Source: Chitinophagaceae bacterium PMP191F (GTDB lineage: Bacteria > Bacteroidota > Bacteroidia > Chitinophagales > Chitinophagaceae). From it: DNA of 64,000 nucleotides. Positions 4,385 through 50,338 of this stretch are shown piece by piece (the first letter of the stretch is position 1; each line of letters starts with the position of its first letter). The notes under the pieces are model-generated. The model had not been told where the DNA came from. It did no database searches and was given only the letters and a program-made list of their open reading frames with translations. The stretch covers positions 186,001-250,000 of the forward strand of contig LGYU01000009.1 in the NCBI GenBank assembly GCA_001302245.1, in the 5' to 3' direction. The position numbers and the translations under genes were made by a program.

Positions 4385-4430
4385 GCCATAATACTTTAGC
4401 TACTCATTGAAAATTTTAAACAAAATCAAT

Positions 4431-34337: not shown

Positions 34338-36338
34338 TTATTCCTTTTGCACCAAATGTTGTAAGTCAGGGTCGTTTTTGATGCGTTCCATTTCACTTTC
34401 AACAATGGTCATAACATCCTGCTTGACTTGCTTGTAGTTGGCTTCAATTTCTTGCTTCATATTATCCGCTCCACTTTCATCGGTAAAGGATAATATCTGC
34501 GGTATCTTCTTGTAGGCTTTGGTTTCGGCGGCAACTTTATCATTATCTACTACAATTTCAGAATGAAATATTTTCTGCTCGATGCGTTCATCGAAATTGT
34601 CGGAAACCGCACCAACAAACATGCCCTGCGTAAGTGTTGAAATTTTGGATGCTGGTATCAGGCTATCCATTTGGGTAGAAATGGAAGTGGACTTATCATT
34701 TCGGTTGATGGTCATGCTCTGCCTTTTCTGCAACACTTTTCCAAAGCGTTCCGAAAGGCTCTTTGCTGTTTCGCCCACCACCTGACCGGAGAAAATATTA
34801 CCTATGGTATTCTGTATTACCTTACTTTCTTTATCGCCGTAATCCCTTGTCAGTTGTGAAAAATCCTGAAAGCCCAAACATACTGCTACCTTATTACTAC
34901 GTGCAGTTGCAATCAGGTTATCCAATCCCCTGAAATAAATGGTTGGCAACTCATCTATGATAATTGAACTTTTAAGCTGTCCTTTTTTGTTAATCAGTTT
35001 TACAATCCTTGAATTGTATAAACCCAAAGCTGCGGAGTAAATATTTTGCCTGTCGGGGTTGTTGCCAACGCACAGTATTTTAGGCTCTTTCGGATTGTTG
35101 ATGTCCAGTGAAAAATCGTCCCCCGTCATTACCCAATACAACTGCGGGCTAATCATTCGGGACAAAGGAATTTTTGCCGATGCAATCTGCCCCTGTAACT
35201 GGTCTTGTGCGCCCCCTAACCAGGCATCCATGAACGGCGATAAATAATTTTCGAGTTCGGGGTATGACGTAAGTATGGTAAATACGTCTGCGTATTTTTT
35301 GTTGAGCAATTCGATGGCGTGCGGGAACGTGCAATGCTTGCCGTTATCGTAAATTTTCAGGAACCAAATAATTGCTGCAAGCAATATAATCGGGCTTTCA
35401 ACGAAGAAATCCCCTTGCTTCAAAATCCACGACTTGTTAAGGTTAAGCATGATGGTATAGGCAGCTTCGTAAGCATCCGATATGTCCGTCATAAAGTCGG
35501 GATTAAGCGGGTTGCACCTGTGGCTCCGGCGTGGGTCATCAAAATTGATAACATAAAACTTGGGGGCTATTTTGTACTTGTTGGTATGCTTTAGCAGGTG
35601 GTTGTAGGCAATCGTGGAAAGGTCATCAAACTTGAAATCGTAGATATACATACTGAACCCTTTCTCGATGTGTTGTTTGATGTAGTTGTTTACAATAGCA
35701 TAGGATTTCCCCGAACCCGGAGTACCCAACACAATAGAGGCTCTAAAAGGATTGACCACATTAACCCAACCGTCATTCCATTTGCCTTTGTAGTAAAACT
35801 TCGTAGGCAGGTTAACGGAATATTCATTTTGCATCAGTTTGGTTTCCTGCTGGAAACTTTCGTTCTCGTTGTTGAAAACATCGTCCATCAGGTTATTGCG
35901 TAGTAAGCGGCTCATCCATACACCAGCCATCAGCAGGGCAATATATCCTGCGCCCGTTGTAAGAATGTAAAGCGAAGTAGCTAACCCTGCCGATAATTTC
36001 AGCAATGGGAAATTCAGGAAGAACAGCACTAAGCCAGTGGCTAAGGCAACACGGATTTTAGTCCATGTTATCTTTTCGTTTTTCACGCCCTTTGTACCCA
36101 AACAGCTTAACGCCAGTAACACCAATGCAAAAAATTTGGTGTAAAGCGTGTGTGAGAAAAGCCCTGCGGTACGGTTAAAATTGGTGAGTATCTTGCCTAT
36201 AACTTCTAAAGTCCAGCCACGTTCGGCAAAGAACCCATAGCAAAACCAATAAAAGTGCATCAATACAATGAGGATGCTTACCGCTCTCATAAAAGCCATT
36301 ATTTTGGCTAACCCTCTTAAATCGTCTTCTCCTTGCAT
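34338..36338 (-). CDS. mobC: Type IV coupling protein MobC (TraG/VirD4-like)
   Basis: A 666-residue coupling ATPase that brings the relaxase-DNA complex to the transfer channel. Four hydrophobic segments lie in the first 160 residues. The Walker A motif GTPGSGKSYA is near residue 208 and the Walker B region SSIIIDELPTIYF near 460. A conserved CLGFQDFSQLTRDYG follows. It is downstream of MobB on the same strand, after a 124-base gap that contains a hairpin. Matches the MobC/TraG proteins of Bacteroidota conjugative elements. Confidence 0.93.
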   Translation of the reverse strand: MQGEDDLRGLAKIMAFMRAVSILIVLMHFYWFCYGFFAERGWTLEVIGKILTNFNRTAGLFSHTLYTKFFALVLLALSCLGTKGVKNEKITWTKIRVALATGLVLFFLNFPLLKLSAGLATSLYILTTGAGYIALLMAGVWMSRLLRNNLMDDVFNNENESFQQETKLMQNEYSVNLPTKFYYKGKWNDGWVNVVNPFRASIVLGTPGSGKSYAIVNNYIKQHIEKGFSMYIYDFKFDDLSTIAYNHLLKHTNKYKIAPKFYVINFDDPRRSHRCNPLNPDFMTDISDAYEAAYTIMLNLNKSWILKQGDFFVESPIILLAAIIWFLKIYDNGKHCTFPHAIELLNKKYADVFTILTSYPELENYLSPFMDAWLGGAQDQLQGQIASAKIPLSRMISPQLYWVMTGDDFSLDINNPKEPKILCVGNNPDRQNIYSAALGLYNSRIVKLINKKGQLKSSIIIDELPTIYFRGLDNLIATARSNKVAVCLGFQDFSQLTRDYGDKESKVIQNTIGNIFSGQVVGETAKSLSERFGKVLQKRQSMTINRNDKSTSISTQMDSLIPASKISTLTQGMFVGAVSDNFDERIEQKIFHSEIVVDNDKVAAETKAYKKIPQILSFTDESGADNMKQEIEANYKQVKQDVMTIVESEMERIKNDPDLQHLVQKE

Positions 36339-36368
36339 AATTCAAAAATTTGTTTTGATGCAAGTGTA

Positions 36369-36386
36369 ACCGCTATGAATAGCGGT
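36369..36386. repeat. Perfect inverted repeat between mobB and mobC
   Basis: ACCGCTA (36369-36375), a four-base loop and TAGCGGT (36380-36386) form a perfect stem in the 124-base gap between the relaxase and coupling-protein genes. Two further AGCGGTGT copies follow directly. It may be an mRNA processing or attenuation structure; a role in DNA processing is also possible. Confidence 0.45.
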
Positions 36387-36462
36387 GTAGAGAAAGCGGT
36401 GTCAGATGGCGTGTAGTGGCATTATTTGGCATTAAACTGGCTTCCTGATAGAGAACAAAATC

Positions 36463-37767
36463 TTATTGCCGTCTTCCTGGTCTTTTGTTTTTCTTCTTTT
36501 TCTTCATGCGGTTTGCAAAAGCCTGTTCCTCGTAATCCTCGCCCTGTGCTTCCGGTAATAGCCCGCCCAATCCGTCTATCAATCCTGTATCATCGGTTGG
36601 CTGTTCTTTATCAAAGAAATCAAAAAGCCTGTGAGTTTCTTCTTTTTCCTCAACAACGTTTTTATCTGCGGCTGGCAATGCGGAGGTACTTGTATGTTCT
36701 GTATTTTGGCGTTGTTCCATTACTTGTTCTTTCCACCAGTCGTTAAACACATTTGCCGATAGTTTTTTGTCCAAAGCTGAACCGTTCCAAACTGTGCGGC
36801 TTTCATGGTCTATAAATGTCATACCATATATGCGCCCCTTATCAGTGCGGCGTACAACGGTATTGATGCCCTGCTCCAATAGTTGCTTTTTAAAATCGGT
36901 TTCATTGGTGGCCGTGTGCATTGCTACCTCGATGCTGTTTTTCAGTATGGCTCTTACCGGGTTATTTTTAATCTGCTCTTTAGATTGTGCAAAATGTTCC
37001 TGCAAGGCTTCCAATCCTGCGTGTTTGCCAAAACGTGAAGCCTTGAAAGGATTGCTGGCTTTTACTCCCTGTTCGTTCAAGGCAAAATACACCAGCCCGT
37101 TTTTGGGCTGTCCGTTCAGCTCGCCTTTCACTTCTTCGGCGGTAATATTAAAGAGGGAAAGCAACGCATTGTATGCGCCCAAACTGGCATATCCGTAATA
37201 CTTTGGCAGATGTCGTACCACCGATGCTATCTGACTTTTAACATCCCCGGCTTTGTAGTCTATCGGGTGGAATACCCGCTCGTTCCCCGTGCGTTGCTTT
37301 TCCGTTGCAGGTACAAGATTGTACTGCTGTTCCAATTTCCTGCAAATTGCCATTGAACGGGGATGGTCGTAACTGTCCGCTATCTTCTTGCCATCCAATC
37401 CAACGGCAACGGTCACAATATGGATGTGGGTGCGCTCTATATCCGTATGTTTGAAAACAACATAGGGCTGGTTGCCATAGCCCATTTCCTGCATATACTG
37501 CTGCGCCATTTTTATAAACTGCCCATCGCTGACCTTATCCGCAGGATCAGGGTTCAGCGATATGTGGCGAACTGGTTTTTCCGTTCGGATATTGGCGGCT
37601 AAATAGGGCTCAAATTGCTGGTGCAGGTAATGGGTAGAATAAGTATTGTTCAATGTTTCCGGTATCTTGTTCAGCAACAAAACCTGCCCTTTTTCTTTGT
37701 CAATCTTCTGCTGGTTATATGATATAGCACCGTACAAATGCTCACCCTTTCCAATCTTTGCTATCAT
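36463..37767 (-). CDS. mobB: Relaxase MobB
   Basis: A 434-residue relaxase that nicks oriT and carries the strand into the recipient. The metal-binding histidine triad is seen in TDIERTHIHIVTVAV near residue 110, and the N-terminal MIAKIGKGEHLYGAISYNQQ is typical of Bacteroidota MobB. The C-terminus is Lys/Arg-rich (KKKKKNKRPGRR). The start overlaps the MobA stop (ATGA), so MobA and MobB are coupled. Confidence 0.93.
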   Translation of the reverse strand: MIAKIGKGEHLYGAISYNQQKIDKEKGQVLLLNKIPETLNNTYSTHYLHQQFEPYLAANIRTEKPVRHISLNPDPADKVSDGQFIKMAQQYMQEMGYGNQPYVVFKHTDIERTHIHIVTVAVGLDGKKIADSYDHPRSMAICRKLEQQYNLVPATEKQRTGNERVFHPIDYKAGDVKSQIASVVRHLPKYYGYASLGAYNALLSLFNITAEEVKGELNGQPKNGLVYFALNEQGVKASNPFKASRFGKHAGLEALQEHFAQSKEQIKNNPVRAILKNSIEVAMHTATNETDFKKQLLEQGINTVVRRTDKGRIYGMTFIDHESRTVWNGSALDKKLSANVFNDWWKEQVMEQRQNTEHTSTSALPAADKNVVEEKEETHRLFDFFDKEQPTDDTGLIDGLGGLLPEAQGEDYEEQAFANRMKKKKKNKRPGRRQ

Positions 37768-38288
37768 TTTTGCAAGTGTTTTTTCTCAAATTCCTGTGTC
37801 AGTTCAATTACTTTCCGGCACAAGTCCGCCATTTCTGCCGTCTGTTTTTCCAGTTTAAAGAGGTAAGCAGATGCTTTTTTCTCCGAAAAATTGCGGTACA
37901 ATATCTTCACGATTTGGTTGTAGTTCACACCAACGGCTCTGAACTGGCTGTAAAAACTGGTGAGCCTTGTATGAAATTCTACGGCATCCATATCAATTTT
38001 TACTGTCTTAATTGTTTTCTGAAAGATGCAGGCAGTAATAAAATGCGCCATTACTTTCATTCCCGATTGCTCGAACAACGTAAGGAACTGTGCGTTTTCC
38101 GTATCGTTCAGGCTAATCGAATAGCGGTGGGTTGCAGGGTCATTCTTAGGCTTGCGACCACCTTTGCTTATTTGATTTCTTTTCTTGTCGTCCATATCTC
38201 TATCCATTACAATTTCCATAAACCCCGACTTCGGAGGGGGTTTTCCGGCTCCATGCAATGGCAAGTTGTTTTTAGCTGCGGAAAGCAT
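37764..38288 (-). CDS. mobA: Mobilisation accessory protein MobA
   Basis: A 174-residue relaxosome accessory protein. The core KNDPATHRYSISLNDTENAQ begins a ribbon-helix-helix-like region, and GVNYNQIVKILYR matches the MobC/MobA-type signature seen in plasmid mobilisation proteins. An alternative start at 38219 (MEIVMDRDMDD) is also plausible, since the first 23 residues look unlike the family. It borders the probable oriT region. Confidence 0.88.
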   Translation of the reverse strand: MLSAAKNNLPLHGAGKPPPKSGFMEIVMDRDMDDKKRNQISKGGRKPKNDPATHRYSISLNDTENAQFLTLFEQSGMKVMAHFITACIFQKTIKTVKIDMDAVEFHTRLTSFYSQFRAVGVNYNQIVKILYRNFSEKKASAYLFKLEKQTAEMADLCRKVIELTQEFEKKHLQK

Positions 38289-38942
38289 TTCAAGCAGCTA
38301 AAAACATAACTTGCTCTGTTCGGTTGAACAGAAAATCCGCCCTGCGGGACGGATTGGATAAAGCAGAAAAAAACGACTTAGAGCCGTTCCACTTATAGCC
38401 TCTTATCTCCAATGATTTTTCCATTCTCCTGTTGCATTGATGCAACTACAAAATAAGTGCAGCTTTCCCGAAGCATCACCCTGTTGCACACTGCCAAACA
38501 CTGCCACAGAACGCCAATAGCTACCACTTCGCAGCAATGCGATAAAATAACCCGCTCCTTTGTGATAGCATTCAGGCAAGCGTGTTGGCAGGCATTCATT
38601 CCGGTTGGCAGTTCAGAAAGACAGCATACAAGATTGCAGGAACCTAAGAATGTCTGATAGCATTCAGTCCGGCAGGCTGGCACACCTGAAAGAAAGCAGG
38701 ACGGCTTTCATGTTGGGCTGCAAGGTGGCATGACAGCTCACAAAGGAAACGGCTTGCAAGCGTGACAGCAGAAATGCAAGATGGTCGGCACGACAGGCAG
38801 AAAGGTTGTTTGCCTGATAGCCGGAGTTCCATCGGGATAGCATGACAGTATTATTTCATGCAGGATAACACGCTATCAAGAAAGCCATCCCGCAGGATTG
38901 CAGGCAGTACAAACAGAATTAAATTTTAAAACAGAATAGAAA
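38289..38942. other. Gene-free repeat-rich region, probable oriT
   Basis: This 654-base stretch between mobA and traA has no credible gene. It holds an inverted repeat CTGTTC-GGTT-GAACAG (38316-38331), a hairpin AATCCGCCC/GGGACGGATT (38334-38355), two identical copies of TGATAGCATTCAG (38563-38575, 38655-38667), and four near-identical nonamers GCATGACAG, GCGTGACAG, GCACGACAG, GCATGACAG (38728, 38760, 38788, 38840). The place next to mobA and the repeats fit an origin of transfer with accessory-protein binding sites. The nic site cannot be placed from sequence alone. Confidence 0.6.
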
Positions 38943-39710
38943 ATGGAAACAAAAAACAAAACCCGATTCATTGCTTTTTCCAGCCAAAAAGGAGGCGTGG
39001 GTAAAAGCACTTTTACCACCATCACTGCAAGCATACTCCATTACCGCATGGGGTATAACGTGGTCGTATTTGATTGTGATTACCCACAGCACAGTCTTTG
39101 GCAGATGCGGGAACGGGATTTAAAAACGGTGATGAAAAGCGAAATCCTGAAAAGACTGGCGTACCGCCAGTTCACGACCATTAACAAAAAAGCATATCCG
39201 GTATTGCAGAGCAAGGCAGACAATGCTTTAAGGGATGCGGAGGCATTTTTACAATCTTCCGATGTCCCGGTGGATGTGGTTTTCTTCGACTTACCGGGAA
39301 CTGTGAACACCCCCGGCTTGCTCAATACGCTGGCAGGAATGCAACATATCTTTTCACCTATCACGGCAGACCGTGTAGTGATGGAAAGTACATTGAGCTT
39401 TACCGATGTTCTGACCAATGTTTTGATGAAACGGGGACAGACTTGCATCGAAACGATACGGTTATTTTGGAACCAGGTGGACGGACGGGAAAAATCGCAC
39501 CTGTATGAAGCCTATGGAAATATCATCAATGAAGTTGGGCTGCAAACGATGGAAACCCGCATTGCAGACAGCAAACGCTTTCGCAAGGAAAGCGAAGCTA
39601 CCGCAAAGACCGTTTTCCGCTCCACATTATTACCTCCCGATGAAAGATTGATGAAAGCCTGCGGGCTGGATTTGTTTATGGTAGAGTTTTTAAGAACCGT
39701 CAAATTGTAA
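38943..39710 (+). CDS. traA: ParA/MinD-like ATPase TraA
   Basis: A 255-residue P-loop ATPase of the ParA type. The deviant Walker A motif KGGVGKST lies at residues 16-23, followed by VVVFDCDYPQHSLWQMR. It matches TraA of Bacteroidota conjugative elements, first gene of the transfer operon. Its role may be positioning or stabilising the element rather than the channel itself. Confidence 0.93.
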   Translation: METKNKTRFIAFSSQKGGVGKSTFTTITASILHYRMGYNVVVFDCDYPQHSLWQMRERDLKTVMKSEILKRLAYRQFTTINKKAYPVLQSKADNALRDAEAFLQSSDVPVDVVFFDLPGTVNTPGLLNTLAGMQHIFSPITADRVVMESTLSFTDVLTNVLMKRGQTCIETIRLFWNQVDGREKSHLYEAYGNIINEVGLQTMETRIADSKRFRKESEATAKTVFRSTLLPPDERLMKACGLDLFMVEFLRTVKL

Positions 39711-39715
39711 CGGCT

Positions 39716-40129
39716 ATGGAAAATGAGAATAAGAAAAAAACAAATGCCCCGATAGACGAGGCATACATCATGTCCATAATGGCGGGTGAAACAAAAAAGC
39801 CTGAAAAAGCAACGGAGGAACCCCAGGCAGAACAAAAGGAGTTGATAGACGAAAAGCCCGCATCTAAGGAGCGTACCCGTCAAAAGAAAGTTTCCGGGTT
39901 CAGTTACGGTGAGCGTTTCCTCAATGGTCATACCATGACCCGCAGGGGTGATAAAAGCATTTACATCCGGCAGGAATATCACGAACGGCTTTCCCGTATT
40001 GTACAGGTTATCGGTGAGGATAAAATACCCCTGTATGCTTATTTGGACAATATTCTCGAACACCATTTTGAACAGTTTGAGAAAGCCATCACCGATGATT
40101 TTAATGAGAAATTTAAACCCATATTTTAA
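39716..40129 (+). CDS. traB: DUF3408 protein TraB
   Basis: A 137-residue basic protein of the DUF3408 family. The C-terminal part (SIYIRQEYHERLSRIVQVIG, then YLDNILEHHFEQF) looks like a ribbon-helix-helix DNA-binding fold; the N-terminal half is Lys/Glu-rich and likely disordered. It follows traA by five bases, and a ParA-type ATPase next to a small DNA-binding protein resembles a partition pair. Confidence 0.88.
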   Translation: MENENKKKTNAPIDEAYIMSIMAGETKKPEKATEEPQAEQKELIDEKPASKERTRQKKVSGFSYGERFLNGHTMTRRGDKSIYIRQEYHERLSRIVQVIGEDKIPLYAYLDNILEHHFEQFEKAITDDFNEKFKPIF

Positions 40130-40140
40130 AGTATTTGATT

Positions 40141-40779
40141 ATGGAAATAATAATTGTTATCTGCCTGCTGATTGTTATTGTGCTGCTGGCAAAGGATAAA
40201 ATCATCATCAAAAAGGTGGTGAAAAGCAAGCCTCAACATCCTGCGGTAAATCCCGATTTATCGGAAATAATGGGCAAGCCAAAGCCTGTAAAGCGACACA
40301 TAGTGCCAACAAGTGCCACGAAACGCCAATTTGATAAAAAGGCTGATATACCTGATAATTTTGAAGCAGAAACCAACGAAGCAGGTTTTGCGAGGGAAAT
40401 TCCGCAGGAGGAATTGGATGAAGTTTTTGGGAGTGAACCTGTTTCCGATTTTGAGAGTGAGGACGAGGAATGGCAAGAACAGGGATTACCGAACAGCGAC
40501 AATGGGTTTGCCACAGGGGTTACCTACGAGGAACTGACAACCGTGGGGGCATTGCTTCAGCAAGACGTGCTGGAACCTGCCTCTCAACAAAAAGCGGTAG
40601 ACATCGTTCAGCGAATACAGGGAACCGAATTGTTTAGCTTGCTCGAAAACTCCATAGAGGGGGCTTCACGAAAGATTGCGGAGCTGCTGGATAAAAGCCT
40701 CCCCGCCAGAGCGGATTTCAATTCTTCCAACGTGCGGAATAAGGATTTAGAGGGTTTCGACATTGGGGAGTTTGTCTGA
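40141..40779 (+). CDS. traD: Conjugal transfer protein TraD (Bacteroidota type)
   Basis: A 212-residue protein with one N-terminal membrane helix (IIIVICLLIVIVLLA) and an acidic cytosolic part containing IPQEELDEVFG and GTELFSLLENSIEGASRKIA. It matches the TraD proteins that follow DUF3408 in these elements; it is not the F-plasmid TraD. Start ATG at 40141 is preferred over an in-frame TTG. The last codons overlap a terminator hairpin. Confidence 0.85.
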   Translation: MEIIIVICLLIVIVLLAKDKIIIKKVVKSKPQHPAVNPDLSEIMGKPKPVKRHIVPTSATKRQFDKKADIPDNFEAETNEAGFAREIPQEELDEVFGSEPVSDFESEDEEWQEQGLPNSDNGFATGVTYEELTTVGALLQQDVLEPASQQKAVDIVQRIQGTELFSLLENSIEGASRKIAELLDKSLPARADFNSSNVRNKDLEGFDIGEFV

Positions 40780-40798
40780 AAAGACAGCTCCCTTTTGT
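40766..40798 (+). terminator. Terminator at the end of traD
   Basis: GGGAG-TT-TGTCT (40766-40777), a GAAA loop, AGACA-G-CTCCC (40782-40792) and TTTTGTTT form an intrinsic terminator for the plus strand overlapping the traD stop. It ends the traABD transcript immediately before the oppositely oriented defence-like operon. Confidence 0.75.
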
Positions 40799-41599
40799 TT
40801 ATATCGCTTTATCAAGTCTTTTATGAATGTAGGATATGGTATTCAAAATATCCAAAGCCTCGTCTTCGGTAATTTCAAATTTGATTTTAGGTTCGTGCGC
40901 CGTAGAGTTTCTAATTAAGCCAAACATACCTTTAATCAAGTTGCATAATCCTAAATGCTCGCTTCTATCCGTATCCGTTTTTAAGTGATTGATTTTAACC
41001 AACGGATTACTGGTAGAAAATGAAGTTTCTGCTAAAGCATTGCCATCTGCATAAAGCCCGGTCATTTTCCTTAAACGGTCTGCAATACTTTTGGTAGCCT
41101 CAAAAACAGAATGAAAGTAGTTTTCAACCAATAGTTCAGCCTTACAATATTCAAATATCGCAGCATGAACATTCCTGCTTTCCAACTTATGTTTTAAGCG
41201 GCTGGCACGTTGTTCGGCTTCTGCGATTGTTGTAGCTTTTTCAACTAATCTGAATTTACCTTGCTCTGTGAGTTCTGTACCTATAAACGCTAAACGTTTA
41301 TTAACCTCTAATCTGCGGTTATGAAAAATTTCTTCTTTCCCAATATACCGAACAGGTTGCAAAGCATCTTGCACAAATCTTAGTATATGATTTGAACATT
41401 GATTTTTATTCTGCCAATCAGCAAATGCAGAATACAGTCTTCTCCATTTTGTGTTTTGAGGGTCAACATCCGGGATGTTTGCGTTCAATAGAATTTGCCC
41501 TATTTCCGTACCTGTCAAACCATCCGAAGCATCTCCAATAGTTTTACATAATCCCTCCAACACATGCGCTTCAAACATTGGACGTTTAATACTTGCCAT
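40799..41599 (-). CDS. TIGR02391/Ymh family protein with HEPN-type motif
   Basis: A 266-residue protein matching the TIGR02391 (Ymh) family. The C-terminal helical part reads GMFGLIRNSTAHEPKI: Arg230, Asn231 and His235 form the RNxxxH motif of HEPN ribonucleases, which in many toxins and defence proteins cleave RNA. The N-terminal part (GLTGTEIGQILLNANIPDVD) is a helical bundle also seen in the family. It is the last gene of a tight five-gene operon, five bases after the nucleoid-associated protein gene. RNase activity is inferred from the motif only. Confidence 0.85.
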   Translation of the reverse strand: MASIKRPMFEAHVLEGLCKTIGDASDGLTGTEIGQILLNANIPDVDPQNTKWRRLYSAFADWQNKNQCSNHILRFVQDALQPVRYIGKEEIFHNRRLEVNKRLAFIGTELTEQGKFRLVEKATTIAEAEQRASRLKHKLESRNVHAAIFEYCKAELLVENYFHSVFEATKSIADRLRKMTGLYADGNALAETSFSTSNPLVKINHLKTDTDRSEHLGLCNLIKGMFGLIRNSTAHEPKIKFEITEDEALDILNTISYIHKRLDKAI

Positions 41600-41604
41600 A
41601 CTTT

Positions 41605-42651
41605 CTACTTTTCTTCCTCGTAATAGATTTTGTAATACTTCCTACCATCTTTCTCAACACCCTTTTCAATAAGATCTTTATTCCCATGAATATATATGTC
41701 GAAATTTCGGTCAAGTTTTAGTACGCTTTTGAAAACACGAGATTGTTTTTTTACAGCTTGGGAAGATATTGGGAAGCTATCTGCTAATTCTACCTCATTT
41801 TCCTGTCTGTAAGTTTGATCGAACTTTCTAAACGATTCAATAACATTGTTGTCTCCAAACACTTCCTCTTCAAACTCCTCTTTATTAAATGTCTCATTCT
41901 TTTTAAAATAGTCCACAGATCGATTTAAAAAATCAATTTTATCGGCTTTACTCAACTCAAAGTCTTCATCTAATTGCTTTGTTACAAACTGTTTGGCTAT
42001 TCCTAAAAATTGGTTGGTTTGATGGTATTCATCCTTGATAATGCTCACATTAAGAAACTCATCTTTCCAATATTGTGCTTCGTTTGATTTGCTTGCATTA
42101 TCAATAATTAAAATTTTATATCCTGTTTCGGCAGTTGTATTGAAAATCAAACAGCCTTTATCCATGCTTTTCAAATCGAATCCAATTTCATGTACAATAT
42201 TATAATTCGATCTTTGCTTCTTCATCTGAATAAATGGAGAAGGTGTTTCTGATTTGAAAATGCCAAGTACATTAACAACCTCATCTTCTATAATTATATT
42301 GTCGAATAGTGAAATATTGAGTTGCCCTTCTTTTATTTTGGGGTGCATTGACTGTTCATAAAGTAATTTTGCTATACTTTGAGAATTTGAGATAAAAGAA
42401 TTTGGATCTGAAAATATCTGCTTAGCTAAAGTAAACACTTCATTCATCTCAATATTTACTGCATGGGTAAATTTGTAAAGTTCTTCTGTTTTTAAAAGGG
42501 ATAAGAAATATTTTAAAAGATAGTTTTTCGTGTCCGATGCTAAGAGCGATTCTTCATTAGAAAGACTATATTTTTCATCTCGTAATTTATTTCCAATTTG
42601 GTGCGTAATAATTTTCTCTATTTCTACTTGGGTAAAATCTATATTATTCAT
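41605..42651 (-). CDS. 37-kDa nucleoid-associated protein (NA37/NdpA-like)
   Basis: A 348-residue protein of the NA37 family. Family-like segments include VEIEKIITHQIGNKLRDEK at the start, SFISNSQSIAKLLYEQSMHP, and the C-terminal DRNFDIYIHGNKDLIEKGVE. NA37/YejK proteins associate with chromosomal DNA; some phage and mobile elements also carry them. It begins three bases after the preceding gene, so it belongs to the defence-like operon, where it might bind DNA as a sensor or adaptor. That role is inference. Confidence 0.85.
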   Translation of the reverse strand: MNNIDFTQVEIEKIITHQIGNKLRDEKYSLSNEESLLASDTKNYLLKYFLSLLKTEELYKFTHAVNIEMNEVFTLAKQIFSDPNSFISNSQSIAKLLYEQSMHPKIKEGQLNISLFDNIIIEDEVVNVLGIFKSETPSPFIQMKKQRSNYNIVHEIGFDLKSMDKGCLIFNTTAETGYKILIIDNASKSNEAQYWKDEFLNVSIIKDEYHQTNQFLGIAKQFVTKQLDEDFELSKADKIDFLNRSVDYFKKNETFNKEEFEEEVFGDNNVIESFRKFDQTYRQENEVELADSFPISSQAVKKQSRVFKSVLKLDRNFDIYIHGNKDLIEKGVEKDGRKYYKIYYEEEK

Positions 42652-42654
42652 CTT

Positions 42655-43791
42655 TTATGTCGTATGTTGTACAGAATGTGGTTGAGATTTCAGTAAATTA
42701 TATTTTTCCATTTTGAATTTTTCAAATTCTTGTAATAAAAATAACCTCACTTTATCTTTGTTTACTCCTTTATATTCATCTTTAAGATTAACGGTTGAAA
42801 CATCTATTGAAAATTCAATGTTGCTAAGTCGTTTTTTGAAATATCCGTTGAAGCCAAATTGAACTACGCAGTTCCCTTCAGCGGCATGATAGGAAAAATT
42901 GTAAAGAGCTTCAACTGAGGCTAACTCAATATATTTATGATTCTCATTTTCATTAATCAAATAATGTTCATGTAGTGTTTCGCCATTTATTTTTAAAGTA
43001 TTTACTTTACCCGTCATTAACTTGGCAATTTCAATTGGCATTTCCATAGTTCTATCAGGAGCAATATCCAAATCTGTGGCTCTTTGAAATTCAAAAATTT
43101 CAGAACTATCAGTTAGACTTAAAAAAAATTTAATCCTTTCTTCATTTGTGAAATTGCTATACAAGATTCTTTCAACGTCTGTATTTGGTTTAGTATAGTT
43201 TTTACTTTTAAACTCATTAACCAAATGCTTAACACCCAAATCCGCAATTGTTTGAGTTTCAGGAGAGGTGTAAATCATTCTTAGATATACCTTGTCATTT
43301 TCTTGTACCTTCTCTAAGACAATTTCTCCATCATACTCATTTTTAGTTCTATACCAGCCAGAATTATAATTATTCGTTTGACATCTAAATTGCATTTTCA
43401 CTTTGTTTGGATTTCCTTCAACCATTGCAAAATTGGTTTGCGAAATAACAGCCTGTCGTGAATCCGCTGTTCTTATAATTTCCTTTAAATCAATCTTGTC
43501 AGGAACAACTTTAATGAGATCATCTGTATTATGCCAGGCTAAAGGTCTTGAAAGAATTTTTTGGTTTAATTCTTTTCCTCGAATGTTTTCTTTAATATAT
43601 TCAAATTCACTCGGAGAAAGTATTGTTGACAATAAAATTGGATATGTATCATTATTCTTTGAATCCTCTAAATAAATTCCACGCAGTCTGAGCAAGTATT
43701 TCAATTTTGTGTCGGATAATGACGGATGATTTAAAACGTCCTGAAGAGTTGCTCCAAAAGGGATATGCTTATTTACTTCTAACTTTTCCAT
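42655..43791 (-). CDS. GapS4b-like protein
   Basis: A 378-residue protein without recognisable catalytic motif or membrane segment. Its opening (PFGATLQDVLNHPSLSDTKL, LRLRGIYLEDSKNND, STILSPSEFEYIKEN) resembles, from memory, the GapS4b partner of the two-gene GAPS4 anti-phage system. The position four bases after a GapS4a-like nuclease gene strengthens this. The rest of the protein is beta-rich and variable. A homology search is needed to confirm the name; as an alternative it is an uncharacterised sensor or regulator protein. Confidence 0.6.
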   Translation of the reverse strand: MEKLEVNKHIPFGATLQDVLNHPSLSDTKLKYLLRLRGIYLEDSKNNDTYPILLSTILSPSEFEYIKENIRGKELNQKILSRPLAWHNTDDLIKVVPDKIDLKEIIRTADSRQAVISQTNFAMVEGNPNKVKMQFRCQTNNYNSGWYRTKNEYDGEIVLEKVQENDKVYLRMIYTSPETQTIADLGVKHLVNEFKSKNYTKPNTDVERILYSNFTNEERIKFFLSLTDSSEIFEFQRATDLDIAPDRTMEMPIEIAKLMTGKVNTLKINGETLHEHYLINENENHKYIELASVEALYNFSYHAAEGNCVVQFGFNGYFKKRLSNIEFSIDVSTVNLKDEYKGVNKDKVRLFLLQEFEKFKMEKYNLLKSQPHSVQHTT

Positions 43792-43795
43792 AGTA

Positions 43796-44701
43796 CTAAC
43801 GTAAAATAGGGTTATTATAATTTACTACTTCTAACTGCGAAGTAAAAGAGGCATCATTGAATATTTGCTTAATGTTGTTTACCGTTGGCAAATGTTCAGT
43901 TTCTGAATAGTCCGGAAAGCCAATTAATGTCGCTCCTTGTGCATTACAGCCAATATTTTTTGCTATTCCCATGTATTTCATCAAATCATCTCTATCAAAA
44001 TTGTCGATTGCATTTATAATGATAGTTGTTTCATTCTCCTTTGATGCTCTCAATGGTAATATACTTGAGTTAATGTACTGAATCGGCATAACTCTCCCGT
44101 TTCGTGGATTTCGGTCATCATTATTTAGCCCATTGTTGAAATAAACAAAGTCAATATTGTGTAGACGATATTTCAATTGAGCAAAACAAATCGAATCATA
44201 TATGAACTCAATCCGTTTATTGTCAACTAAAAAAATGCCGTCGTGATTTACCCCTGTATTTAACTCAATCCGAGATAATCGACTTACTAAATCGTTCTCA
44301 CCTGTTCCTGAATTGTTCAACCAAAACAAAACACCTCGATCGAAATGTGTGTCAATGTTCTGGTGAAGATTTATTGTGTATTGTTTTAACTCAGACTTTT
44401 TAAAGGATTCAATTGCCTTAGCTAATTCAAGATATCGCTCTTTAAATTGTGTTGTTACTTGTGATACAGGATAAGGATCTGTGCTATATTTTGATGAATA
44501 GATGACATTTTCAATTGTGCTGCTCACCATAGGATTAACGTAATGAAAATATCCATCTATCCCATTTGTTCTTTTTCTGAACTCGGTATCAATACTATCA
44601 ATATCATCATTTCTTAAAGGATTTATCCATCCTATAAGGGCTAAAAAATCCGCTACTACTGTTTCGCCTACTTCTCCTACACGTTTTGAATATTCTCCCA
44701 T
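43796..44701 (-). CDS. GapS4a-like PD-(D/E)XK-type nuclease
   Basis: A 301-residue protein starting MGEYSKRVGEVGETVVADFL, the helix that opens many restriction-endonuclease-fold proteins (Glu10, Glu13). It is followed by GIDG (Asp49) and VIYSSKYS (Lys71), which is the spacing of a PD-(D/E)XK active site with Ser in place of the second acidic residue. The overall look agrees, from memory, with GapS4a of the GAPS4 anti-phage system. It follows the XRE regulator by 20 bases and is coupled to the GapS4b-like gene. Cytosolic; predicted to cleave DNA. Confidence 0.65.
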   Translation of the reverse strand: MGEYSKRVGEVGETVVADFLALIGWINPLRNDDIDSIDTEFRKRTNGIDGYFHYVNPMVSSTIENVIYSSKYSTDPYPVSQVTTQFKERYLELAKAIESFKKSELKQYTINLHQNIDTHFDRGVLFWLNNSGTGENDLVSRLSRIELNTGVNHDGIFLVDNKRIEFIYDSICFAQLKYRLHNIDFVYFNNGLNNDDRNPRNGRVMPIQYINSSILPLRASKENETTIIINAIDNFDRDDLMKYMGIAKNIGCNAQGATLIGFPDYSETEHLPTVNNIKQIFNDASFTSQLEVVNYNNPILR

Positions 44702-44721
44702 AATTTCTATTTAAGTTAAGT

Positions 44722-45057
44722 CTAAGTTTTTTTTCTTCGATAGTATTTGATTTTCTTCTCTACTATTTTTAGGATTTCAAGTCCATCTTCCTCATTAAGA
44801 AGTTGATTAGTGATCTTATCGCTAATGTATCTAACCTTTAGTTCGGACTGGTCAATTTTGAACATTCTTGAAATTCCATCAATGATTTGTTCATTGGCAT
44901 TTCGTTCATTCTTCTCTATTTTACTCAATGTTGACGTATCAATATTCAATTCCGCTGCGACTTTTCTAAGAGGAAGATTCGCTTTTCCCCTTAATGACCG
45001 GACATACTCGCCAAATGATATTCTTTCTAATGTTGACATTGACTTCTTGGACATCAT
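44722..45057 (-). CDS. XRE-family regulator of the defence-like operon
   Basis: A 111-residue single-domain helix-turn-helix protein: LRKVAAELNIDTSTLSKIEK near residues 31-50 is a clear XRE/Cro recognition region. The C-terminus is basic (KKIKYYRRKKT). It is the first gene of the operon and likely controls it. A -7 box ends five bases before the ATG, so the message is probably leaderless. A later in-frame ATG (MSTLERISFGEY) is an alternative start. Confidence 0.88.
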   Translation of the reverse strand: MMSKKSMSTLERISFGEYVRSLRGKANLPLRKVAAELNIDTSTLSKIEKNERNANEQIIDGISRMFKIDQSELKVRYISDKITNQLLNEEDGLEILKIVEKKIKYYRRKKT

Positions 45058-45062
45058 TTGTC

Positions 45063-45070
45063 CAAAAGTA
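45063..45070 (-). promoter_or_regulatory. -7 box (TACTTTTG) of the defence-like operon
   Basis: Exact match to TAnnTTTG on the minus strand, five bases before the XRE start codon; the -33 region is T-rich but not an exact TTTG. The transcript would begin at or beside the ATG. No other promoter is seen inside the operon, whose genes are almost contiguous. Confidence 0.5.
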
Positions 45071-45251
45071 ATAAAATTCTATGATTTGAAAAATATGTAT
45101 TTCATAGGTATCAATTACTCATAACACTGCCACTCACTGCCAAGTAATTCCACTGAAAGACACATCGTTATTGCGCCTCTTTTTTCCTGACACTTTTGTT
45201 CCGAAAGCCCACAGAAAGCGGGAAGTAGAAACAAAATAATTCATTCAGATT

Positions 45252-45557
45252 ATGGAAAGAAGAAAGAAAAAAGTATTGCTGACAGGCGTTGCGTTACTGT
45301 CGGCATTTGGTGTGTTCGCACAGGGAAACGGCAATGCTGGCATTCAGGAAGCAACACAAATGGTAACGGGATATTTTGACCCGGCTACCAAATTGATTTA
45401 TGCCATCGGTGCGGTGGTTGGGTTAATCGGAGGTGTAAAGGTTTACAACAAATTCAGCAGTGGCGACCCGGACACATCGAAAACGGCGGCAAGCTGGTTC
45501 GGTGCGTGTATCTTCTTAATCGTTGCAGCAACCATCCTGCGTTCATTCTTCCTTTAA
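45252..45557 (+). CDS. traE: Conjugative transfer protein TraE (DUF4134)
   Basis: A 101-residue inner-membrane protein with a signal-like N-terminus (VALLSAFGVFAQ) and two hydrophobic segments (LIYAIGAVVGLIGGVKVY; FGACIFLIVAATILRSFFL). This pattern resembles VirB2-type pilins, and DUF4134 TraE is the presumed pilin of these systems. Start follows a 194-base gap after the XRE gene, so it probably has its own promoter. Confidence 0.9.
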   Translation: MERRKKKVLLTGVALLSAFGVFAQGNGNAGIQEATQMVTGYFDPATKLIYAIGAVVGLIGGVKVYNKFSSGDPDTSKTAASWFGACIFLIVAATILRSFFL

Positions 45558-45568
45558 TCCAATGCCCT

Positions 45569-45901
45569 ATGAGTAATTACAACATCAACAAAGGCATTGG
45601 AAGAACCGTAGAGTTCAAAGGGCTGAAAGCACAATACCTGTTCATCTTCGCAGGTGGCTTGCTCGGCGTGCTTATCCTTGTTATGATTATGTACATGGCA
45701 GGCGTAAACTCCTACATCTGCCTGTTCATAGGCGCAGGCGGTGCATCACTGATTGTTTGGAAAACATTCTCATTAAATGGCAAGTACGGCGAACACGGGT
45801 TGATGAAGCTGGGCGCAAAGAAAAAGCATCCCAAATACATCATCAGTCGCAAAGCGGTACATCGCAGTTTAAGGTTCACCTCTAAATCCGATGCCGTATG
45901 A
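45569..45901 (+). CDS. traF: Conjugative transfer protein TraF (DUF4133)
   Basis: A 110-residue DUF4133 protein with two adjacent membrane helices (YLFIFAGGLLGVLILVMIMY; ICLFIGAGGASLIVW), comparable to VirB3 in topology and in its position directly before the VirB4-like ATPase. The ATG at 45569 (MSNYNINKGIGR) is chosen over an upstream TTG. Its stop overlaps the TraG start (ATGA). Confidence 0.9.
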   Translation: MSNYNINKGIGRTVEFKGLKAQYLFIFAGGLLGVLILVMIMYMAGVNSYICLFIGAGGASLIVWKTFSLNGKYGEHGLMKLGAKKKHPKYIISRKAVHRSLRFTSKSDAV

Positions 45902-48405
45902 GAAACACCGCAAAAACTACAACGCTGGAAAGCAAGTTTCCATTACTGGCGGTGGAACACAACTGCGTCATTTCAAAAGATGCAGACATTACCGCCTGCT
46001 TTCGGGTACACCTGCCGGAACTGTTTACCGTAGCATCACCGGAGTACGATGCCATACACTCCGCATGGCACAAGGCAATCAAAACCTTACCGGATTACTC
46101 CATCATCCACAAACAGGATTGGTTCATCAAGGAAAATTATGCACCGGATATTGCACAGGACGGATTGAGTTTCTTAGCGAAATCCTACCAGCAACATTTC
46201 AACGAGCGTCCTTTTCTCAACCATTACTGCTACCTCTTTTTGACGAAGACAACCAAAGAGCGTATGCGGATGCAAAGCAACTTTAGTTCGCTTTGCAAAG
46301 GCGTTCTTATCCCGAAAGAAATAAGGGATAAAGAAACCGTCCGCCGATTTATGGAAGCGGTGGCGCAATTCGAGCGCATCATCAACGACAGCGGGTTTGT
46401 GAAACTGGAACGGTTGACAGAAGATGACATCATCGGTGCAAATGAAAAACAGGGATTGTTGGAGCAATACCTGACCTTATCACGGACAGCCAATACGCCG
46501 TTGCAGGATTTGGCACTCGGTACGGAAGATGTGCGCATCGGTAATAAGCGATTGTGCCTGCACACGCTTTCAGATACAGACGATTTGCCCGGAACAGTAT
46601 CAGCAAATACACGTTATGAAAAGCTGTCCACCGATAGAAGCGACTGCCTGTTGTCCTTTGCGGCTCCGGTGGGCTTGCTCCTTAGCTGTAACCATATCTA
46701 CAACCAGTATTTATTTTTGGATAACAGCGATGAGAACCTGCGCAAGTTTGAAAAATCCGCAAGGAATATGCACTCGCTGGCAAGGTATAGCCGTGCAAAT
46801 CAAATCAACAAAGAGTGGATTGAAAAGTACCTGAACGAAGCCCACAGCTTCGGGCTTTCGTCTATCCGTGCGCACTTCAATGTAATGGCGTGGTCGGATG
46901 ATGCAAACGAACTCAAACAGCTAAAGAACGATACCGGTAGCGCATTGGCTTTAATGGAGTGCAAGCCTCGCCACAATACCATTGACGTTGCCACGCTGTA
47001 TTGGGCGGCTATGCCGGGCAATGCGGCCGACTTTCCAAGCGAGGAAAGTTTTTACACGTTCATTGAACCCGCCCTGTGTTTCTTCACCGAAGAAACCAAT
47101 TATCAAAGTTCACCATCGCCTTTCGGTATCAAGATGGCAGACAGGCTTACGGGTAAGCCTATCCATTTGGATATTTCCGACCTGCCAATGAAAAAAGGCA
47201 TCATCACGAACCGCAACAAGTTCATCTTGGGGCCATCGGGTTCGGGTAAGTCTTTTTTCACTAACCACATGGTGCGCCAATATTACGAACAGGGCGCACA
47301 CGTCCTGCTCGTGGACACAGGTAATTCCTATCAGGGCTTATGCGAACTGATTAAAGGAAAGACCAGAGGTGAAGACGGGGTTTACTTTACTTACACCGAA
47401 GAGAACCCGATTGCGTTCAATCCCTTTTATACCGATGACGGCGTATTTGACATTGAGAAAAGGGAAAGCATCAAAACCCTCATCCTTACGCTTTGGAAGC
47501 GTGATGACGAACCGCCGAAGCGTTCGGAAGAAGTGGCGTTGTCAAACGCCGTGAGCGGTTACATTGACCACATTAAGCAAAACGATGAATACCCATCGTT
47601 CAACGGATTCTACGAATATGTAAAGGGTGATTACAAAACGGTACTGGAAGAAAAGCAGGTAAGGGAAAAAGACTTTGACCTCGCCAATTTCCTGAACGTA
47701 CTGGAACCTTACTACAAGGGCGGCGAATACGATTACCTGTTGAACTCCGATAAGCAACTCGACCTGCTTTCCAAACGTTTTATCGTGTTTGAAATTGATG
47801 CGATAAAAGACCACAAAATCCTCTTTCCCGTGGTCACAATCATCATTATGGAAGTGTTCATCAACAAGATGCGCAGGCTCAAAGGTGTGCGTAAGCTGAT
47901 ACTGATTGAAGAAGCGTGGAAAGCGATTGCTAAAGAGGGTATGGCAGAATACATCAAGTATTTGTTTAAGACCGTCCGCAAATTCTTTGGTGAAGCCATC
48001 GTGGTTACGCAGGAAGTGGACGACATCATCCAGTCGCCCATCGTGAAAGAAAGTATCATCAACAACTCCGACTGCAAAATCCTGCTTGACCAGCGCAAGT
48101 ACATGAACAAGTTCGATGACATTCAGGCGATGCTCGGACTTACCGAAAAGGAAAAATCACAAATCCTTTCCATCAACATGAACAACGACCCGTCAAGGCT
48201 TTACAAAGAAGTATGGATTGGGCTGGGCGGTACGCATTCCGCAGTTTACGCCACAGAGGTATCGCTCGAAGAATACTTAGCCTACACCACGGAGGAAACC
48301 GAAAAAATGGAAGTGATGCAGCTTGCCCATGAACTGGATGGTAACGTGGAGCAAGCCATTAAACGCATTGCCCTCCAAAGACGTGAGAAAGCAAACAGTT
48401 ACTAA
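45898..48405 (+). CDS. traG: VirB4-like transfer ATPase TraG
   Basis: An 835-residue ATPase that powers the type IV channel. Walker A LGPSGSGKSFF lies near residue 447 and Walker B LILIEEAWKAIAKEG near 668; VVTQEVDDIIQSPIV follows as in VirB4 proteins. It matches TraG of CTnDOT-type systems. Translationally coupled to traF. Confidence 0.95.
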   Translation: MRNTAKTTTLESKFPLLAVEHNCVISKDADITACFRVHLPELFTVASPEYDAIHSAWHKAIKTLPDYSIIHKQDWFIKENYAPDIAQDGLSFLAKSYQQHFNERPFLNHYCYLFLTKTTKERMRMQSNFSSLCKGVLIPKEIRDKETVRRFMEAVAQFERIINDSGFVKLERLTEDDIIGANEKQGLLEQYLTLSRTANTPLQDLALGTEDVRIGNKRLCLHTLSDTDDLPGTVSANTRYEKLSTDRSDCLLSFAAPVGLLLSCNHIYNQYLFLDNSDENLRKFEKSARNMHSLARYSRANQINKEWIEKYLNEAHSFGLSSIRAHFNVMAWSDDANELKQLKNDTGSALALMECKPRHNTIDVATLYWAAMPGNAADFPSEESFYTFIEPALCFFTEETNYQSSPSPFGIKMADRLTGKPIHLDISDLPMKKGIITNRNKFILGPSGSGKSFFTNHMVRQYYEQGAHVLLVDTGNSYQGLCELIKGKTRGEDGVYFTYTEENPIAFNPFYTDDGVFDIEKRESIKTLILTLWKRDDEPPKRSEEVALSNAVSGYIDHIKQNDEYPSFNGFYEYVKGDYKTVLEEKQVREKDFDLANFLNVLEPYYKGGEYDYLLNSDKQLDLLSKRFIVFEIDAIKDHKILFPVVTIIIMEVFINKMRRLKGVRKLILIEEAWKAIAKEGMAEYIKYLFKTVRKFFGEAIVVTQEVDDIIQSPIVKESIINNSDCKILLDQRKYMNKFDDIQAMLGLTEKEKSQILSINMNNDPSRLYKEVWIGLGGTHSAVYATEVSLEEYLAYTTEETEKMEVMQLAHELDGNVEQAIKRIALQRREKANSY

Positions 48406-48425
48406 TCATTTTAAAAGCAAGAGAA

Positions 48426-48641
48426 GTGGAAAAGGAGAAAATCACACTGCCCATTGGTGGTAACAAGGCTTTGATATTTGAAGCCGACCCCACCAACAAA
48501 GAGGAACAGGATTTTGCAAAACTGTGCAAGGAAGCAGCAGCATCCCAACCTCAAAGCCTGCAAGACTTTTTTACCCGGCTCAATGACCTGCAACAAAAGA
48601 AGCCTCCTGAACCAAAAAGGAAAATGGGTCGGAAAATGTAA
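48426..48641 (+). CDS. Small soluble protein between traG and traI
   Basis: A 71-residue protein starting with GTG at 48426. It is charged, with an acidic N-terminal half and a basic C-terminal half (PEPKRKMGRKM), and has no membrane segment. It keeps a reading frame without stops between traG and traI and has the codon use of its neighbours, so it may be a real accessory gene. No family recognised. Confidence 0.5.
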   Translation: MEKEKITLPIGGNKALIFEADPTNKEEQDFAKLCKEAAASQPQSLQDFFTRLNDLQQKKPPEPKRKMGRKM

Positions 48642-48703
48642 AGCAGCTTTTCAACAGGAAAAGAAAAAATCAAACAGTTATTAATTTTTAAAAATCAGAA
48701 ACA

Positions 48704-49336
48704 ATGAAAAAAGCAATGTTACTGGTGTGTACGGCAATTATGCTTGCCGTTGCACCATCCGCTAAAGCACAATTTGTAGTAACTGACCCCGGTAATCTTA
48801 TCTCCGGCATTCTCAACAGTGCAAACGAAATCGTGCAGACCTCATCCACCGTATCGAATGTGGTTAAGAATTTCAATGAGGTAAAAAAGGTGTATGACCA
48901 AGGCAAAGAGTATTACGACAAACTGAAAGCCGTAAACAACCTGGTTAAAGATGCCCGCAAGGTACAGCAGACCGTTTTGCTGGTGGGCGATGTGTCCGAA
49001 ATGTACGTGAAGAATTTCGGCAAGATGATGAACGACCCCAATTTCACCCCACAGGAATTGACGGCAATTGCTAATGGTTATTCTACGCTTCTGAATGAAA
49101 GTACCGAGTTGCTGAAAGAGTTGAAACAAATCGTTACCTCGACCGGGCTTTCCTTAAATGATAAGGAGCGTATGGATATAATCGACAAAGTGTACAAAGA
49201 GGTTAAGGACTACCATAACCTTGTACGCTATTACACCAATAAAAATATTTCTGTAAGCATTTTGAGGGCGAAGAAACAGAACAACACCAAGCGTGTGCTG
49301 GAACTGTACGGAACCGCAGAACAAAAATATTGGTAA
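48704..49336 (+). CDS. traI: Conjugative transfer protein TraI (DUF4141)
   Basis: A 210-residue exported protein with a signal peptide ending SAKAQ. The helical body (VVKNFNEVKKVYDQGKEYYD) resembles VirB5-type proteins, and DUF4141/TraI is assigned to the same position in Bacteroidota transfer clusters. It is four bases upstream of traJ. Confidence 0.9.
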   Translation: MKKAMLLVCTAIMLAVAPSAKAQFVVTDPGNLISGILNSANEIVQTSSTVSNVVKNFNEVKKVYDQGKEYYDKLKAVNNLVKDARKVQQTVLLVGDVSEMYVKNFGKMMNDPNFTPQELTAIANGYSTLLNESTELLKELKQIVTSTGLSLNDKERMDIIDKVYKEVKDYHNLVRYYTNKNISVSILRAKKQNNTKRVLELYGTAEQKYW

Positions 49337-49339
49337 GCT

Positions 49340-50338
49340 ATGGAATGGAATAACCTTCACGAAATGCTGCGCAGCCTGTACGATGAAATGATGCCATTGA
49401 CGGCAGACATGGCTGCAATAGCCAAAGGAATTGCCGGATTGGGCGCACTGTTCTACGTTGCGCTGAAAGTGTGGCAGGCGTTGAGCCGGGCAGAACCCAT
49501 AGACGTGTTCCCTTTGCTCCGTCCGTTCGCCATCGGGCTTTGCATTATGTTTTTTCCCACGATGGTTTTAGGAACCATCAATGCGGTAATGTCTCCCGTA
49601 GTAAAAGGCACGCACTCCATGCTCGAAGGGCAGGTACTTGACCTGAACAAGCTACAACAGCAAAAAGACCAGTTGGAGCGGGAAGCCATGCTTCGCAATC
49701 CCGAAACCGCTTACCTCGTAAGCGACGAGGAATTTGATAAGAAGCTGGACGAATTGGGCTGGTCGCCGTCCGATTTGGCTACCATGACGGGAATGTATCT
49801 CGACAGGCAAGCCTATAAAATGGAGAAAGCCATAAAGGAGTGGTTTCGTGACCTGCTGGAGATACTCTTTCAGGCAGCGGCATTGGTCATAGATACGATA
49901 CGGACGTTCTTCCTCATCGTACTGTCTATATTGGGGCCGATAGCCTTTGCGATAAGCGTTTGGGACGGTTTTCAGTCCACGCTCACGCAATGGCTAACCC
50001 GATATATCAGCGTTTATCTGTGGCTGCCCATATCCGATATGTTCAGTTCCATACTGGCGAAAATACAATCGCTCATACTGGAGCGGGATATTGAAATGCT
50101 GGCAGACCCTACTTACATCCCCGATACTTCCAATACCGTGTATATCATTTTTATGCTGATAGGCATAGTGGGCTACTTCACTATCCCAACGGTGGCGGGC
50201 TGGGTAATACAGGCAGGCGGTGCAGGAAACTTTATGCGTAACGTAAACTCTACGGCTGCAAAAACAGGAAATCTTGCCGGAGCCGGAACGGGAGCCGCAG
50301 TGGGCAACATTGGCGGCAGGCTATTGAACAAAAATTAA
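49340..50338 (+). CDS. traJ: Inner-membrane transfer protein TraJ
   Basis: A 332-residue polytopic protein with helices at about residues 20-45, 60-80, 180-210 and 260-290, and a Gly/Ala-rich C-terminus (GNLAGAGTGAAVGNIGGRLL). The layout is that of VirB6/TrbL-type channel components. It matches TraJ of CTnDOT-type elements. Confidence 0.93.
   Translation: MEWNNLHEMLRSLYDEMMPLTADMAAIAKGIAGLGALFYVALKVWQALSRAEPIDVFPLLRPFAIGLCIMFFPTMVLGTINAVMSPVVKGTHSMLEGQVLDLNKLQQQKDQLEREAMLRNPETAYLVSDEEFDKKLDELGWSPSDLATMTGMYLDRQAYKMEKAIKEWFRDLLEILFQAAALVIDTIRTFFLIVLSILGPIAFAISVWDGFQSTLTQWLTRYISVYLWLPISDMFSSILAKIQSLILERDIEMLADPTYIPDTSNTVYIIFMLIGIVGYFTIPTVAGWVIQAGGAGNFMRNVNSTAAKTGNLAGAGTGAAVGNIGGRLLNKN

Follow-up and report, generated by a model that had tools for sequence, protein, structure and literature searches.

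A probable three-gene variant of the GAPS4 defence system with a nucleoid-associated protein in a conjugative transposon of Bacteroidota

Our analysis of a 64,000 nucleotide stretch of Chitinophagaceae bacterium PMP191F (contig LGYU01000009.1, positions 186,001 to 250,000; the whole stretch is called the window) did reveal evidence for an extended form of GAPS4, the GapS4a-GapS4b system reportedly described by Mahata et al. in 2024. We consider it fairly probable that the five-gene operon at 40799-45057 is a three-gene GAPS4 variant, GapS4a-GapS4b-NA37, located between traD and traE of a Bacteroidota integrative and conjugative element (ICE). An XRE regulator gene precedes this trio, and an exchangeable HEPN gene (Ymh) follows it. 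Judged by sequence, the family memberships of GAPS4, NA37 and Ymh are firm, as is the linkage of NA37 to GapS4 along several GapS4 branches, and the operon is predicted to have an anti-phage function. An earlier note, made from the sequence alone, had described five tightly spaced minus-strand genes that are AT-richer than the transfer genes around them and run opposite to these. The open reading frames (ORFs) reproduced its coordinates exactly, with intergenic gaps of 20, 4, 3 and 5 bp, a GC content of ~0.28-0.38 as compared to ~0.40-0.50 on both sides, and adjoining transfer genes on the plus strand. Loci and genomes used for comparison are given by their labels (L and G, respectively).

The first two structural genes encode GapS4a (43796..44701, minus strand, 301 aa) and, after a 4-bp gap, its partner subunit GapS4b (42655..43791, minus strand, 378 aa). 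Since both exceed the NCBI curated cut-offs (NF047933, 324.4 bits with a cut-off of 270; NF047934, 378.1 bits with a cut-off of 300) their membership of GAPS4 is solid, and the resemblance proposed in the earlier note was thereby borne out. As in GAPS4, the two subunits are adjacent and in the same order; the E. coli and plasmid pairs that we inspected consist of two genes, whereas the window adds NA37 as a third, with Ymh and XRE appended. Pfam and PADLOC gave nothing for either subunit (for GapS4a no Pfam match at E ≤ 1 and no clear PDB sequence match), and PDB sequence searches of the four structural proteins GapS4a, GapS4b, NA37 and Ymh returned nothing useful. From its motifs (D49 and S69-x-K71) GapS4a is a probable nuclease, putatively the PD-(D/E)XK-type subunit, while no library match names it as such; in the alignment D49 is found in 14 of 15 relatives and SxK in 11 of 15. 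GapS4 proteins of linked loci align with those of the window at identities from 91% down to ~20%, and in eight loci (L018, L019, L022, L023, L024, L036, L089 and L219) GapS4a and GapS4b are fused into one protein of 710 or ~895 aa. The four aligned sequences lacking SxK are ~895-aa fusions, and these possess a new N-terminal domain in which E34, D43 and Q56-x-K58 are invariant. As SxK is gone where the new domain with its invariant residues is present, the nuclease site looks to have been replaced by this domain.

The third structural gene (41605..42651, minus strand, 348 aa) encodes a nucleoid-associated protein of the NA37/YejK family (PF04245, 124.6 bits, cut-off 24.6). Its structural model matches E. 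coli YejK (9be2) with a Foldseek E-value of 1.1e-8 and a VIA Z-score of 14.9 over 275 residues at a root-mean-square deviation of 8.7. According to PMC10561277, which cites Lee and Marians 2013, E. coli YejK binds double-stranded DNA (dsDNA) and interacts with topoisomerase IV. An NA37-centred genome scan kept 80 loci, 75 of which encode an NA37 ORF of at least 250 aa (L035, L077, L078, L084 and L085 do not and were left out). By the models used, 13 of these are linked to GapS4 (three being copies of the window operon), 4 to Lamassu, 4 to a RelA/SpoT-domain gene and 54 to none. Because such a scan favours the presence of NA37, four overlapping GapS4-centred draws of 395, 395, 298 and 395 genomes were made as a counter-sample. 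They yielded complete Bacteroidota GapS4 pairs in nine distinct genomes including our own, and NA37 adjoins the pair in six of them (G000, G012, G281, G432, G589 and G812). This count omits G699 and G653, which have short matches (E 2.6e-4 and 8.5e-4) and no GapS4 by the models used, as well as G689, which has the first half of GapS4a only and neither GapS4b nor NA37; with these three included, NA37 is adjacent in 6 of 12. NA37 furthermore follows two kinds of GapS4a-GapS4b fusion. It precedes GapS4a in reversed order with gaps of 16-18 bp on the viral contigs L166/L210 and L168/L211, in the latter of which GapS4a lies at the contig end, and on viral contig L200 a shortened NA37 is located 335 bp before GapS4a. 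What the earlier note proposed for NA37 was supported insofar as NA37 is a recurrent third gene, seen beside 6 of 9 complete pairs, with both fusion types and in the reversed viral arrangement. Since parts of the operon recur in other genomes and the pairwise ratios of nonsynonymous to synonymous substitutions (dN/dS) are 0.02-0.05, rough values because dS exceeds 1 but pointing to purifying selection, the arrangement is not due to chance. These ratios were obtained for GapS4a, GapS4b and NA37 against L009 and L010 and for Ymh against L015 and L022.

Two side observations concern these genes. The genome of the window encodes a second NA37 (G000:C34:111709-112740, L228) beside which the models used recognised no adjacent defence gene and which offers a natural control for experiments. 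In L086 (8614-11320) two genes of 565 and 347 aa, neither with a Pfam match over the cut-off, come after a GapS4 pair that has no NA37.

NA37 might alternatively regulate an ICE or genomic island in the manner of NdpA2 of PAPI-1, its place beside GAPS4 then reflecting the island and not defence. PMC8565334 describes that NdpA2 together with TprA counters MvaT repression and enhances ICE transfer, and the window operon does lie inside an ICE. On the other hand, the available flanks of nine GapS4-linked loci (L011, L018, L019, L023, L024, L072, L089, L102 and L219) gave no match to tra genes, and the adjacency persists in fused, unfused and reversed arrangements. We regard island regulation as quite unlikely. 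The nine loci without tra match also led us to reject NA37 as a plain ICE passenger.

The distribution of NA37 on phylogenetic trees argues for the GAPS4 variant as well. On a tree of joined GapS4a and GapS4b (26 rows) the presence of NA37 needs 2 changes as compared to a mean of 8.2 after shuffling. This tree omits L168, where no GapS4b was seen, and the copies or near copies L209, L087 and L101, and it carries a long-branch warning for L200, L088, L166 and L218. On the NA37 tree (77 rows, 16 of them GAPS4-linked; without L006-L008, which are the same as the window, and without L120, L101, L076 and L200) the GAPS4 label needs 7 changes, 5 of which are forced by starred branches. The difference between 2 and 7 changes, in counts by parsimony where gains and losses of NA37 are not distinguishable, suggests that more than one NA37 lineage became joined to GapS4. 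Going by these sequence trees, GapS4 branches likely retain an NA37 gene, and the NA37 lineage that occupies the place has varied.

Several results weigh against the three-gene variant. NA37 is not adjacent to three of the nine complete Bacteroidota pairs, namely G154 (at a contig edge), G320 and G771. It is absent beside both plasmid GapS4 pairs found, beside both E. coli pairs inspected (of four found) and from the viral contigs L206-L209, which carry GapS4 (L206 begins at a contig edge). Given these Bacteroidota, plasmid, E. coli and viral pairs, NA37 is not needed in all GAPS4 systems. On the GapS4a and GapS4b tree 10 of the 16 NA37-positive rows stem from the NA37-centred scan. With respect to other partners, NA37 was found within 1.5 kb flanks of only 1 of 30 LmuB loci, the weaker of which may not be Lamassu, and the new N-terminal domain of the ~895-aa fusion gave a negative hhalign result against LmuA. 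Finally, the AlphaFold2 model of GapS4b (mean pLDDT 80.8) matched RdgC in VIA over most of its length (Z 7.5 with 227 residues and Z 7.1 with 226), which is below the caution line of Z 8, and sequence profiles of the two proteins showed no relation (hhalign probability 0.06%).

The GapS4b model also matched the kinetochore proteins Iml3 and CENP-L in VIA, with Z 6.0-6.4 over 180-204 residues, and chain N of the human CCAN complex (7pkn_N) was retrieved by Foldseek with an E-value of 3.4e-5 but a TM-score of 0.18. The top VIA rows, above RdgC, are single-domain matches to phosphoglucomutases and others with Z-scores up to 8.5 over 94 residues. The RdgC- and CENP-L-like model, which comes without sequence support, gives at most a hint that GapS4b may bind DNA. 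In the viral structure library GapS4b matched one uncharacterised phage protein (E 4.7e-5). Single-protein scans of viral contigs gave no relative of GapS4b or of Ymh, and a search of phage records gave no match for GapS4a.

NA37 itself is composite. A putative crossover zone (42106..42162, minus strand, codons ~164-182) was identified as the region where DNA similarity between otherwise different loci starts and across which trees of the two protein halves disagree on L015. Between the window and L015 DNA similarity extends from NA37 codon ~164 through Ymh; between the window and L022 it extends from codon ~182 into the tra genes; and between L009 and L036 it again begins at codon ~164, over a different downstream pair. 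Relative to L015 the N-half of NA37 is 29% identical and the C-half 86%. On the tree of N-halves one clade (100, starred) unites the four NA37 proteins linked to Lamassu, whereas on the tree of C-halves L015 joins the window group (96, starred). When the 22 linked rows are considered, the label of the partner system requires 4 changes for the N-half, which is the minimum for five groups, and 7 for the C-half. The contrast shrinks (10 versus 12) once unlinked rows are included, and the C-half is the more conserved half overall. Both half-trees omit L006-L008, L120, L101, L076, L200, L166, L168, L066, L059 and L054. Going by these comparisons, NA37 is a mosaic whose N-half tends to follow the upstream system and whose C-half is common to GAPS4 and Lamassu loci, and the downstream genes are, by the pattern of DNA similarity, exchanged through recombination within NA37.

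Such a pattern could also arise if NA37 were kept mainly as a homology handle, with a conserved 3′ half that lets cargo modules recombine and with no immune role. In all three comparisons, window with L022, window with L015 and L009 with L036, similarity begins inside NA37, and the C-half tree mixes partners, which is what a handle would predict. However, the dN/dS of NA37 (0.04-0.05 against L009 and L010) indicates purifying selection over the gene, and the linkage also occurs in loci without the common downstream module. This explanation therefore seems very unlikely to us.

The last gene of the operon (40799..41599, minus strand, 266 aa) encodes a Ymh protein (TIGR02391; PF09509 Hypoth_Ymh, 128.4 bits, cut-off 25) which resembles HEPN-type RNases. 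Residues R230, N231, A234 and H235 of its RNSTAH stretch (R230-H235) are invariant in all eight aligned sequences and fit an R-x4-H motif, which we take to be the HEPN motif. Among the loci examined Ymh was seen behind NA37 in three different settings, namely the window operon (of which L006-L008 are copies), L022, and L015, where the upstream genes are LmuA-LmuC-LmuB instead of GapS4. In both L022 and L015 the Ymh protein has 91% identity to that of the window, although the GapS4a proteins of L022 and the window share only ~21-25%. Elsewhere the place after NA37 is taken by a TmtA-like ATPase together with a Schlafen gene that weakly matches HEPN (L009, L010 and L036), a TOTE primase-helicase (L026 and L057), a Schlafen gene (L082) or a gene of 143 aa (L072); in L011, L023, L024 and L027 no gene on the same strand lies close behind NA37. 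Behind Lamassu in L035 a TmtA-like ATPase and a Schlafen gene were found again. Because of the 91% identity across divergent GapS4 and Lamassu loci and the other genes in its place, Ymh is by sequence an exchangeable add-on and not a core gene. The view of Ymh as an integral part, also put forward in the earlier note, was accordingly given up. Its expectation that the four-gene order would recur in unrelated contexts holds for GapS4a-GapS4b-NA37 but not for the full order, which is rare. Likewise, we rejected the five genes as one integral unit, since Ymh and XRE each vary on their own.

Ymh is a homologue of PADLOC PD-Lambda-3_B (271.9 bits, E 1.3e-81, PADLOC stating no cut-off), and PD-lambda-3, which consists of PD-Lambda-3_A and PD-Lambda-3_B, is called an abortive infection system in PMC13190303. 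NA37 and Ymh might hence constitute a separate PD-lambda-3-like two-gene system located merely behind GAPS4, and the fact that the NA37 C-half and Ymh form one block common to a GAPS4 and a Lamassu locus would agree with this. We nevertheless judge it unlikely. Subunits A and B adjoin in the plasmid loci L100 and L098, whereas subunit A was not found in the window: phmmer with subunit A of L100 gave no match at E ≤ 1 among window ORFs of at least 30 aa, and PADLOC gave none among the five operon genes. Most GapS4-linked NA37 loci are without Ymh (L018 and L019 end soon after NA37), all NA37-Ymh pairs in the 80 loci (L006-L008, L015 and L022) have a defence system directly upstream, and the N-half of NA37 tends to track that upstream partner. 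Membership of the operon in PD-lambda-3 itself was rejected, as subunit A was not found in the window. In L098 PD-Lambda-3_A is found just before Ymh and HamA after it; as PD-Lambda-3_A directly precedes this Ymh, we also rejected it as a partner of Hachiman.

Beyond GAPS4, the window operon shares features with other defence systems. NA37 follows LmuA-LmuC-LmuB in some Bacteroidota, as in Lamassu/DdmABC loci L015, L026, L027 and L057 and, with a very divergent NA37, in L120; L015 also ends in the same Ymh. The five window genes themselves, however, gave no LmuA, LmuB or LmuC match in PADLOC. KwaB of Kiwa ranks 2, 3 and 10 after YejK in VIA for the N-half of NA37 (Z 5.2, 5.0 and 4.3 over 132-136 residues), a weak match under the caution line, and there is no KwaA in the window operon. 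KwaB binds phage DNA without cutting it, according to PMC12904381. DefensePredictor contains a validated defence unit with a YejK nucleoid-associated domain which was phage-tested in E. coli (PMC13092281); its likeness to the window operon concerns the YejK-family domain. Among the matches listed, no other defence-discovery paper with YejK was found, and no description of GAPS4 with NA37 was found in the literature searched, which is mostly without subscription journals. As far as seen, the three-gene GAPS4 variant with NA37 is therefore new as a variant.

Concerning a possible mechanism, GapS4a would cut DNA and GapS4b would position it there, while the YejK-like NA37 would bind dsDNA or the nucleoid and connect the nuclease complex to its DNA. 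The N-half of NA37 might dock on the particular partner, and the shared C-half might serve a function common to the partners: it would either label invading DNA or shield the chromosome from the nuclease. Ymh would provide a second layer in which RNA cleavage stops the cell if DNA cleavage fails. The findings describe a nucleoid protein that forms part of defence operons and is associated with several branches of one system as well as with other systems, and they suggest that immune nucleases of bacteria can recruit nucleoid proteins as partners. A broader and considerably more doubtful idea, which we offer tentatively, is that different bacterial immune systems share YejK-type nucleoid proteins as a class of adaptors. 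With a partner-specific N-half and a common C-half such adaptors would plug into DNA-targeting systems (GAPS4, GapS4a-GapS4b fusions, Lamassu and possibly RelA/SpoT-domain toxins beside restriction-modification (RM) genes) and tell the nuclease nucleoid DNA from other DNA, while the downstream slot would take interchangeable second-layer effectors (HEPN-Ymh, TmtA-like ATPase with Schlafen, or TOTE primase-helicase). The window operon is also a caution against concluding, from the close spacing of genes in an ICE slot, that all of them belong to the system.

The surroundings of the operon are those of a Bacteroidota conjugative transposon. TraG near the operon was identified by its match to TIGR03783 (1660 bits); traD and traE were named from gene order, as NCBIfam gave no match for either. 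Window positions 34608-49651 are 100% identical at the DNA level to Bacteroidetes bacterium 43-16 (L007) and Pedobacter nutrimenti (L008) and 99.95% identical to a Filimonas metagenome-assembled genome (L006), which points to a very recent spread of the ICE. In L022 the same ICE slot harbours a defence gene of the SoFic-type Fic kind (2695-3792; PADLOC, 364 bits), which lies upstream of the fused GapS4 gene, and for this reason the gap between traD and traE looks like a defence slot.

The gene in front of GapS4a (44722..45057, minus strand, 111 aa) encodes an XRE/Cro-C1 type regulator (HTH_3, PF01381, 33.1 bits; PADLOC HTH_VI and Control_protein) and resembles control proteins of RM operons. 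Its relatives with 71%, 49% and 42% identity precede RM or methyltransferase genes in L016, L019 and L028, and among the loci examined it is found directly before GapS4a only in the near-identical copies L006-L008. XRE thus looks element-specific and outside the recurrent core. A possible -7 box (TACTTTTG, 45063..45070, minus strand) is located 5 bases before the first ATG of XRE, a weak assignment by match to what we take to be the Bacteroidota promoter consensus, and no -33 box was found at the usual distance from it. Promoter and terminator scans gave signals no richer than in shuffled sequence. L232 contains what is left of a GapS4a of the window type (its first 147 residues, at 91% identity), with an XRE gene of 74% identity further upstream (7771-8211 and 10659-10979), and neither GapS4b nor NA37 was found.

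RM genes and NA37 also meet in other operons. In L019 (360-7625) genes for XRE, a methyltransferase, a Type I-like specificity subunit, the GapS4a-GapS4b fusion and NA37 stand in a row. The operons of L016 and L028 (about 725-8053) encode XRE, a Type II or Type IIG RM system, a second NA37-like protein, a RelA/SpoT-domain protein and NA37, and L013 and L082 likewise carry NA37-like, RelA/SpoT-type and NA37 genes. It is possible that this set of NA37-like, RelA/SpoT and NA37 genes represents a back-up toxin module of RM systems.

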